64,000 nucleotides of DNA from Embleya hyalina (GTDB lineage: Bacteria > Actinomycetota > Actinomycetes > Streptomycetales > Streptomycetaceae), in assembly GCF_003967355.1 (NCBI RefSeq), contig NZ_BIFH01000016.1:425904-489903 (forward strand). The letters are read 5' to 3'. Shown in pieces: positions 39,598-41,918 of this stretch. Each line of letters begins with the position of its first letter. The first letter of the stretch is position 1. A program made the position numbers and the translations under genes. The notes under the pieces are model-generated. The model ran no database searches and was not told the origin of the DNA. It saw only the letters and a list, made by a program, of their open reading frames with translations.

Positions 39598-40899
39598 TCA
39601 GAGGTTGACGCCGTGCGCGCGCAGGTAGGTGACGGGGTTGATGCCGCTGCCGTAGTTCGGGGTGGTGCGGATCTCGAAGTGCAGGTGCGGGCCGGTCACG
39701 TTGCCGGTCGCGCCCGAGAGGCCGATCTGCTGGCCGGTGCTCACCGTCTGGCCGGCGCGGACGCCGATGCTGGACAGGTGGGCGTACTGCGAGTACTTGC
39801 CGTCCGCGTGCTTGATGACGACCTCGTTGCCGTAGGCACCACCGTTGCCGGCGCTGACCACGGTGCCCGAGGTGATGGCCTTGACCGAGGTGCCGGTGCC
39901 GACCACGAAGTCCTGGCCGGTGTGGCTGCCGCTGGACCACATGGAGCCACCGGTGCCGAACGCGGTGCCCAGAGAGCCGTTCACCGGAGCGACGTAGCCC
40001 GAGGAGTTGACCGCGGTGCTGCCGGACTTGGCCGAGGAGTCCTTGGCCACGACGGGGGCCTTCTCCTTGGTCACGGGCTTGGGCGCGACCTTGACCGACA
40101 CGGAGGGCTTGGCCTCGGTCTTGGTCTCGGTCTCGACCTTGGTCTCGACCTTGGCCTCGGCCTTCGGCGCGGCCTCGGTCTTGGTGGCGGCCGCGGCCTT
40201 GCCGGAGAGCGAGAGCTTCTGGCCGACCAGGATCAGGTTGGGGTTGCCGCCGATGACGGACTTGTTGTCGGTGTACAGCTTGTGCCAGCCGCCCTCGACG
40301 TCCTTGGCCGCGGCGATCTTGGACAGGGTGTCGCCCTTGACCACGGAGTAGGTGGTGGTCGTGGTCGTGGCCGTGGTCTCGGCGGCCGGGACGACCTCGA
40401 TCTTCGGGGCCTTCGGGGCCGGCGCGGCCTCGACCGGCTTCTCGGCGACCTTCGGGGCGACCTTGACGGTGCTCTTGGTCGAGCCCGACTTGGCGTTGGG
40501 GGAGACGGCCGGAGCGGCGCCGCCACGGGTCAGGCCCGCGGGGCCCGAGGTGTTCGGCCACGCGCCGGGACCCTGTACGGCGAGAACCTTCTCCGCGATG
40601 GCGATCTGCTGGTCCTTGGTGGCCAGGTCCGCACGCGGGGCGTACTGCTGACCGCCGAACTCGTTCCAGGTGCTCTGGGTGAACTGCAGGCCACCGTAGA
40701 AACCGTTGCCGGTGTTGATGTGCCAGTTGCCGGAGCTCTCGCCCATGGCGACCTTGTCCCAGACGGAGACCGGGGCGGCGGTGGCGGAGGTGGCGAAGCC
40801 GGTGATCAGCGGGGCGGCGACGATGGCGCCGGCCATGCCGAGGGTGAGCGCGAGACGCGTGTTCTTGGGCTTGCGGGCAGGGGTGATGAACGACTGCAC
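39598..40899 (-). CDS. Secreted Rpf-like / LysM / M23 muralytic enzyme
   Basis: A 433-residue protein. A signal peptide ends near ATSATA|AP (about 41). It is followed by an Rpf-type transglycosylase domain (about 43-120, catalytic Glu54 in AMGESSGNWH), an Ala/Lys/Pro linker, a LysM domain (about 185-235, YSVVKGDTLSKIA and NPNLILVGQKLSL), a Lys/Glu/Thr/Val-rich spacer, and an M23 metallopeptidase domain (about 315-433) with the metal ligands in HTGQDF and HLHFE. It can cut both glycan strands and peptide crosslinks of peptidoglycan, for growth or spore resuscitation. GTG 40899 is supported by AGAAGGA about 9 nt upstream, just after a c-di-AMP riboswitch. Confidence 0.93.
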   Translation of the reverse strand: MQSFITPARKPKNTRLALTLGMAGAIVAAPLITGFATSATAAPVSVWDKVAMGESSGNWHINTGNGFYGGLQFTQSTWNEFGGQQYAPRADLATKDQQIAIAEKVLAVQGPGAWPNTSGPAGLTRGGAAPAVSPNAKSGSTKSTVKVAPKVAEKPVEAAPAPKAPKIEVVPAAETTATTTTTTYSVVKGDTLSKIAAAKDVEGGWHKLYTDNKSVIGGNPNLILVGQKLSLSGKAAAATKTEAAPKAEAKVETKVETETKTEAKPSVSVKVAPKPVTKEKAPVVAKDSSAKSGSTAVNSSGYVAPVNGSLGTAFGTGGSMWSSGSHTGQDFVVGTGTSVKAITSGTVVSAGNGGAYGNEVVIKHADGKYSQYAHLSSIGVRAGQTVSTGQQIGLSGATGNVTGPHLHFEIRTTPNYGSGINPVTYLRAHGVNL

Positions 40900-40917
40900 G
40901 AAGATTTTCCTTCTCCC

Positions 40918-41140
40918 ACGCCTACGAAGTGAGCTGTCGGATTCGGGCTGGAGAGTCTCGCCCGGCCGGCGTCGACTCCTCGGGTGTCGAGGAGACGGGC
41001 ACGGCTTCACCCCAAGCCGTCGTTATCGGATGTCCGCGACATGCGGACGCCCGGGACGGCATTCCACTTGGTTCCCCCGCTCCTGCCTTTCGGGTTTCGT
41101 ACCGTGGCCTCTCCGGCGGCAGGATTCGGCGAACCGGGAG
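40918..41140 (-). ncRNA. ydaO/yuaA-type c-di-AMP riboswitch
   Basis: In the leader of the Rpf-LysM-M23 gene the minus strand carries the conserved blocks of the c-di-AMP riboswitch in order. These are a 5' GAATCC-type segment near 41120-41130, GGGGGAACCAAG (41067-41078), TTGGGGTGAA (41006-41015), CCGACAGCT (40932-40940) and the 3' closing GTAGGCGT (40918-40925). The last block ends 18 nt before the GTG start and the ribosome binding site lies in that gap. The class is a genetic OFF switch for cell-wall and potassium genes: c-di-AMP binding lowers expression. Short open frames across this region should be ignored. Confidence 0.88.
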
Positions 41141-41918
41141 ACACATTCCGCCGAACACCGGACCGGTGCGGCGAAGCACCAAGCTACGCATACACCCGAC
41201 TCGGATCCAAACATCACGTTTCGCCGAAACCGAAGATTCGGGTCGGAAGGGTGGAATTCCGGGACCGAAAGTCCCGAAGCGTCCACGCATTGTGCCCGGG
41301 ACGTTCACCGAGGGGTGATGTCGAAAACGCGTGGAGTGAGAATCGTGGAAACTCGGTTCACGGTGCGTGCGAGTTCCTGACAATCGGTGCGCGGAATGTG
41401 ACGTGCGCCACGTGATTTGTCGGAAACGGCGGTCTCGGACCGGTGAAAACGGGGCGAAACCGGGGCCGACCTGGCCATTCGTGGGATGCGACGACGGCGA
41501 AGGCGCGTGTGGTCGCGGTGTTGGTGTTCGACGGGATGGTTCGTTCGAACCGCGTGTCGCGGTGAGGGTCTCCGGTCTGGCTCACTCAAAATTGGGTGAT
41601 TTGCCCTGATATGAACCGTGGATGTGCGCCGAGTATTCACACCGGGACCCTGCGTGTGGTCGAGGCGGGCGGGGAGGTGTCGCCCGCCCTGGTGGCCGCG
41701 CCGCGTCGCGTCGCCCGCACGCGCGTGGCGCGCGGTGGGCGGGGTGGGGGCGGCCGGCCCGCGTCGTCCTGGAGCGCCGGACGGGTCGGATGTGCGTTCG
41801 CGCCCGTCGCGACGTGCGCCACGCCGCCTGCGGCCCGCGGCAGCATCGGCGCGCGATCGACGATCCGGCCGCACCGCGTTCGGGCGTCGCGTGCGGGTGC
41901 GCGGCGGGTCGGGGTGGG
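41141..41918. other. Intergenic region between riboswitch and glcF, about 780 bp
   Basis: No supported gene. The part 41141-41620 is less GC-rich than its surroundings and probably contains the promoter for the riboswitch transcript. The part 41620-41918 is a G- and CG-rich stretch whose open frames give only Arg/Gly-rich translations. A long two-tier hairpin at its end is listed separately. Confidence 0.5.

Follow-up and report, generated by a model that had tools for sequence, protein, structure and literature searches.

The riboswitch and its target gene

The window, a 64-kb stretch of DNA from Embleya hyalina, carries on its minus strand a gene for a predicted secreted cell wall hydrolase, preceded by a leader that matches the c-di-AMP riboswitch family RF00379. 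This was the only Rfam match above gathering score in the whole window (cmscan, covariance model). It covers 41105-40904 on the minus strand with 52.4 bits against a gathering score of 38 (E 2.8e-9), and the GTG start codon of the gene lies 4 nt beyond its 3' end. The features of the locus are listed below.

40905-41131, minus: riboswitch aptamer as re-delimited from the RF00379 match, the blocks and the P2 of paralogues; spans the P1 5' strand through the tail with the ribosome-binding site (RBS)
41131-41122, minus: conserved block CGCCGAATCC, from the sequence
41128-41131, minus: P1 5' strand CGCC, pairs with GGCG at 40922-40919, from the sequence
41118-41124, minus: P2 5' strand TCCTGCC, pairs with GGCAGGA at 41087-41081, from the sequence; both sides change in the paralogues L003 and L004
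41081-41087, minus: P2 3' strand GGCAGGA, from the sequence
41070-41080, minus: conserved block GCGGGGGAACC, aligned to the RF00379 consensus
41016-41060, minus: inserted hairpin GCCGTC...GACGGC with inner stem GTCCGC/GCGGAC, from the sequence and also present in the computed fold
41006-41013, minus: conserved block GGGGTGAA, from the RF00379 match and block position
40950-40954, minus: terminal-hairpin loop strand UCUCC, proposed pseudoknot partner of GGAGA in the RBS, from the loop-tail analysis
40948-40938, minus: conserved block GCCCGAATCCG, from the RF00379 match and block position
40937-40929, minus: conserved block ACAGCTCAC, from the RF00379 match and block position
40924-40919, minus: conserved block TAGGCG, from the sequence
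40919-40922, minus: P1 3' strand GGCG, from the sequence
40909-40917, minus: ribosome-binding site GGGAGAAGG, from the sequence
40916-40912, minus: GGAGA in the RBS, proposed 3' strand of the pseudoknot, located 12 nt upstream of the start codon, from the loop-tail analysis
39598-40899, minus: CDS with GTG start at 40899, encoding a secreted protein of 433 aa (plus stop) of the Rpf-LysM-M23 type
40552-40776, minus: Rpf (transglycosylase-like) domain PF06737, residues 42-116, 112.4 bits (cut-off 27)
40207-40350, minus: LysM domain PF01476, residues 184-231, marginal at 22.1 bits (cut-off 20.9)
39661-39927, minus: Peptidase_M23 domain PF01551, residues 325-413, 103.3 bits (cut-off 28.7)

The first-pass annotation, made from the letters of the window, had placed the conserved ydaO/yuaA blocks in order on the minus strand, and they are indeed found in that order from 41131 to 40919. 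The covariance-model search that it proposed as a check gave the significant hit described above, and the same model describes the B. subtilis ydaO/kimA element (ydaO/yuaA, RF00379; structures 4QLN and 4QLM). Both the ordered blocks and a P1 of 4 bp (CGCC/GGCG) that closes the element, by which membership of the class was judged, are present. A chance match was rejected in view of the E value and of the joint retention of leader and gene in L206-L209, four loci from the genus of the window. As judged from its sequence, the leader is confirmed as a real c-di-AMP riboswitch of class RF00379.

The Rfam alignment seems to begin 26 nt too late, probably because of the long insert in P2, whose two strands are separated by 30 nt in the window. 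The paralogous aptamers of the same genome form P2 with other letters, cctgtcg/CGACAGG in L004 and cccgtcg/CGACGGG in L003, and reading P2 and P1 in this way, against the six other RF00379 leaders of the genome, puts the 5' end at about 41131. The 5' boundary first proposed, 41140, is therefore better than that of Rfam, whereas the 3' boundary proposed with it, 40918, omits both the RBS and the pseudoknot strand.

Rpf, LysM and M23 domains had all been assigned to the target in the first-pass annotation, and all three exceed their Pfam cut-offs, LysM marginally, in the order that is typical of Rpf5, which we take to be the protein later named RpfD. The glutamate of Rpf (GES) and the M23 motifs HTGQD and HLHFE were recognised by eye, and these presumably supply the catalytic residues of the two domains. 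The cysteine pair flanking the Rpf fold, which we assume forms a disulphide, was not found in the window gene. Both cysteines are replaced (GES, WPNTS) in the six rows from the genus Embleya in the tree described below (L206-L209, L015 and L016); CES and a second cysteine occur in the other 27 of its 33 rows, and the paralogue L004 keeps both. The three-domain target was rejected as a novelty, since the architecture was already published in 2005 for the Rpf5 proteins of S. coelicolor and S. avermitilis, which are described with the same three domains as that of the window (PMC1084345). Single near-full-length matches to the target (query from at most 23 to at least 432) were found in at least 44 of 101 family genomes. 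Among named relatives, Embleya scabrispora (79%) and Streptomyces sp. SID3343 (70%) come closest, very near records possibly being excluded from this comparison.

Folding of the isolated leader gave a structure with a z of -2.46 (2 of 200 shuffles were equally stable). This is not the aptamer fold and is uninformative on the pseudoknot, and it was dropped as evidence for the latter. In the computed structure the conserved block GGGGUGA (41013-41007) forms a helix with UCACCCC in the opening codons (40886-40880), which may possibly reflect a ligand-free alternative fold, or chance.

Other leaders in the genome, family and class

Seven RF00379 matches were found in the genome, six of them above gathering score, and all precede wall-hydrolase genes. 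Two of these genes encode Rpf-LysM-M23, two NlpC/P60, and one each Rpf-LysM, Rpf-LysM-NlpC/P60 and LysM-NlpC/P60. Judged by domains, the leaders would thus stand before predicted glycan cutters, predicted peptide cutters and three predicted two-cutters. It had been suggested that at the window gene a single second messenger gates both glycan lysis and crosslink cleavage. This is a fair inference as regards the two predicted activities, but it is less special than implied, with two-cutters behind three of the seven leaders. Four of the seven PF06737 genes of the genome sit right behind an RF00379 leader, and a DAC (DisA-type) domain is also found in the genome. The Rpf-LysM-NlpC/P60 gene (L007, 1662-2702) represents another type of two-cutter fusion and follows a weak match of 32.6 bits, below gathering score.

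RF00379 was detected in all 101 sampled genomes of the family and in 141 of 197 sampled genomes of the class. Thirty-one targets had no recognised motif; among the 20 of them that were scanned, 15 carry peptidoglycan-hydrolase domains, one is a GH16 protein and four gave nothing. In the GH16 case (L134, 1309-2541) the leader precedes a member of glycosyl hydrolase family 16 and not the usual peptidoglycan hydrolase. In another genome two RF00379 leaders (L187 and L188, G078:C1 about 5446196-5447894) are found approximately 1.5 kb apart on one strand, each preceding its own gene with an NlpC/P60 motif, and similar pairs at about 1.5 kb occur in G054:C107 and G093:C44.

Loop and tail across the Actinomycetes

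In the aptamers of Actinomycetes pyrimidines predominate in the hairpin loop preceding the CCCGAA block, and purines in the tail following P1. The pairing of loop and tail was compared over 185 loci, mostly top-scoring RF00379 hits. Seven without the 3' core were left out (L019, L025, L031, L034, L037, L040 and L041; L025 and L031 had only 67 and 134 nt available before the protein match), as were nine of the 178 core-bearing loci in which no ORF of 90 aa or more started within 60 nt, making 16 loci excluded from the counts on start codons and on the pseudoknot. Loops and ORFs were picked by custom regular expressions, with preference for ORFs carrying hydrolase motifs; the stacking energies were entered by hand, with a flat -1.0 for steps containing a G-U pair.

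Over 137 unique pairs, the pairing of a loop with its own tail had a mean of -11.4, against -9.7 when tails were swapped, and none of 300 swaps was as low. The advantage of the own tail persisted on reduced sets of 77, 50 and 24 loci, which still share some common descent, where 0, 0 and 2 of 20,000 swaps were as low. At least five contiguous pairs are possible in 123 of the 137 own pairs, yet the same is true of about 110 of 137 swapped pairs because of the pyrimidine-rich loops and purine-rich tails, and the former count therefore means little. The own tail is among the best tenth for only 32 of the 137 loops. Examples of fitting loop/tail pairs are UCUUCCG/CGGAAGA (L088), CCCUUCG/CGAAGGG (L121), GCUUCCA/UGGAAGC (L099), CUUCCUCU/AGAGGAAG (L100) and GUUAACUUC/GAGGUUAAU (L146). 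The paralogue L007 of the window's genome does not fit, its best loop-tail helix being just 3 bp and off site. The loop-tail pseudoknot is supported at the level of the family; the window alone offers 5 bp, which is achievable by chance.

The tail strand of these pairings lies on or beside the RBS. In the same 137 pairs its 3' end is located a median of 14 nt upstream of the start codon, and it overlaps the best Shine-Dalgarno match by at least 1 nt in 122 and by at least 3 nt in 75; for long NlpC/P60 and M23 targets, as a class, the overlap does not exceed 1-2 nt. A pseudoknot is already known in the ydaO aptamer, where the RNA described in PMC5393176 has the loop CUCCUUCG and the tail CGAAGGAG and the structure contains the pseudoknot. 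What differs in the Actinomycetes is its position on or beside the RBS. In the literature searched, to which Block 2010, Nelson 2013, St-Onge and Elliot 2017 and Sexton 2020 did not belong, no study was seen that tested the complementarity of loop and RBS comparatively, and we therefore claim no priority.

Spacing and terminators

In 169 of the 178 core-bearing loci the distance from P1 to the start of an ORF of 90 aa or more, searched for within 60 nt, is 14-33 nt, which leaves little room for a terminator. No terminator-like site was found in 40600-41700 of the window, where shuffled sequences gave a mean of 1.0. As a contrast we used six plasmid-borne aptamers from outside the Actinobacteria, five from Bacillota and one from a cyanobacterium, all of which match RF00379. 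Four of them have an annotated gene, which lies 97-131 nt from the Rfam match. Terminator-like sites occur downstream of the aptamer in L199, L200, L201 and L205, of which L199 and L205 bear the same site and are not independent. The stretches scanned held no such site in L203, nor on the aptamer strand of L204, so Actinomycetes are not alone in lacking a terminator. L200, from a megaplasmid of Niallia taxi, carries tandem RF00379 aptamers (1143-1288 and 1368-1509) that lie downstream of several tRNA genes in a row.

Distribution of the riboswitch before Rpf-LysM-M23 genes

Thirty Rpf-LysM-M23 loci (L206-L235), the best matches in 101 family genomes, were inspected for the riboswitch. It is present in eight, of which four are from the genus of the window, three from genus g2 and one from g12, and absent in 22, all from two other genera, g6 and g9. 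By cmscan, L206-L213 and L020 have an RF00379 match, whereas L214-L235 and L019 (Streptomyces montanisoli) have none. Copies of gene and leader were found in three further genomes of the same genus (L207-L209). The use of Embleya and Yinghuangia as genus labels is based on three named loci (L015, L017 and L018) together with labels by kinship.

A tree of 33 rows, 29 of them different, from which the proteins of L214, L218, L228 and L019 were left out, requires a single change of riboswitch label, with a support of 96/92; none of 500 shuffles was as low. L020 is on a long branch of this tree. The single change suggests that the coupling of the Rpf-LysM-M23 enzyme to the riboswitch is lineage-specific. 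The root of the tree is not fixed, so gain and loss of the riboswitch are indistinguishable. The idea that the riboswitch always accompanies this enzyme was rejected, given its absence from 22 of the 30 loci and from L019.

Proposed mode of control

We consider it probable that the c-di-AMP riboswitch of the window is a translational OFF switch of the secreted Rpf-LysM-M23 predicted wall hydrolase. When c-di-AMP is plentiful it would be bound by the leader RNA, the aptamer would fold and P1 would close. In this state the loop strand UCUCC would pair with GGAGA in the RBS, 12 nt upstream of the GTG, so that the pseudoknot of the aptamer itself covers the landing place of the ribosome and no separate expression platform would be needed. 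A fall in c-di-AMP would free the tail, and the enzyme, with presumably both catalytic domains active, would be made. The stronger pairing of loops with their own tails, the tail strand that overlaps or adjoins the RBS, the short distance to the start codon and the window leader without a terminator-like site favour this mode of control; the matched aptamer core, the same-genus copies of leader and gene and the DisA-type domain of the genome also agree with it. Against it stand the transcription control reported for rpfA, the computed leader fold, which is not that of the aptamer, the window pseudoknot of only 5 bp, the many swapped pairs that also reach 5 bp, the few loops whose own tail is among the best tenth, the small overlap in the long NlpC/P60 and M23 targets, the lack of a terminator-like site in L203 and L204 and the misfit of L007.

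Docking of an aptamer loop on a downstream RBS region is found in interdomain-docking riboswitches such as preQ1-III and cobalamin. These are other aptamers with other ligands, and the likeness is one of mechanism and not of kinship; ydaO is listed among docking riboswitches in the review PMC10907184. The element of S. coelicolor seems to block the RBS, according to PMC8079986, which cites Haiser 2009 and Block 2010. A close parallel in control is nlpC of C. glutamicum, described in PMC9960051 as an actinobacterial OFF switch without a canonical terminator, as we propose for the window. Translational OFF control was shown for nlpC, and a CTCC-GGAG pseudoknot was suggested in the same account. 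The target there is NlpC/P60 and not Rpf-LysM-M23, and the pseudoknot is a speculation for one gene, whereas the loop-tail swaps extend over many loci. B. subtilis ydaO acts via a terminator (PMC9960051), in contrast to the window, where the tail strand lies in the RBS and no terminator-like site was seen.

It had been given as known in the first-pass annotation that this class of riboswitch controls rpf-type genes in streptomycetes, and this is already in print for rpfA (PMC10117811). The rpfA riboswitch of S. coelicolor and S. venezuelae is like that of the window in that the same aptamer class precedes an Rpf gene. RpfA is described in PMC12011840 with Rpf and LysM only, unlike the window protein, and its counterpart by domains in this genome is L006. 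c-di-AMP lowers rpfA expression, and a five-fold rise in transcript was seen in an S. venezuelae disA mutant (both PMC10117811).

For rpfA of S. coelicolor control of transcription, by termination, has been reported (PMC10117811, PMC5133688), while translational control is favoured for the window. On the strength of these reports, ligand binding might halt RNA polymerase within the aptamer or shortly beyond it through a non-canonical signal, a reading to which the lowering of transcript by the mere presence of the riboswitch, whatever the c-di-AMP level (PMC9960051), is also congenial. We regard it as unlikely, because 40600-41700 lacks terminator-like sites, the start codon follows P1 by so few nucleotides in nearly all loci, and the loop-tail complementarity touches the RBS; a lower transcript could itself follow from blocked translation.

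Within translational control, the RBS of the window and its nearest Embleya relatives might be hidden mainly by UCUCCC at 41141-41136, which extends P1 and pairs with GGGAGA, leaving a minor part to the loop. Seven contiguous pairs (UCUCCCG/UGGGAGA) are possible in L005, L015, L207 and L208, against the 5 bp of the loop, but L016 and L209 have only five pairs in another register, and L004 and L020 only four. Moreover, this stretch pairs no better with its own tail than with those of others (3,465 of 20,000 swaps as low on 39 reduced loci, the P1 block being located in only 90 of 172 loci). An extended P1 was rejected as a general mechanism, since the stretch before P1 gives no swap signal, and as a local one we think it rather improbable. 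Very improbable is a degenerate aptamer that has lost c-di-AMP binding: its 52.4 bits fall below the 73-103 bits among the family RF00379 matches listed, which we ascribe to P2 and two hairpins carrying long inserts, but other members of the set have 47-66 bits, all 26 scored positions of the 3' core are matched, and leader and gene are retained side by side in each of the four genomes sampled from the genus (L206-L209).

Extended to the Actinomycetes, the translational reading would be that of a c-di-AMP riboswitch without a separate platform, its loop-tail pseudoknot fused with the RBS region, in which the ligand closes the RBS before Rpf, M23, NlpC/P60, CHAP and SLT genes, and control of Rpf-LysM-M23 was gained or lost once in the family. 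The balance tips only slightly in favour of this wider proposal. If it is true, a reduced transcript would be a consequence of blocked translation, and the accounts of rpfA and of nlpC would no longer conflict.

Implications

This class of riboswitch, its targets of the Rpf type and the enzyme with three domains (Rpf5) were already known, and the riboswitch of the window is itself ordinary, given its presence throughout the sampled family. The comparison appears to add the pairing of each loop with its own tail near the RBS, and a lineage-specific coupling to Rpf-LysM-M23. Such data are useful because the printed accounts disagree, with transcription reported for rpfA and translation for nlpC of C. 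glutamicum, and they yield a simple testable prediction on the joint role of loop and RBS. The pseudoknot-RBS result is the part most worth following. Furthermore, the lineage-specific coupling would provide a natural comparison of one type of enzyme with and without control by c-di-AMP.
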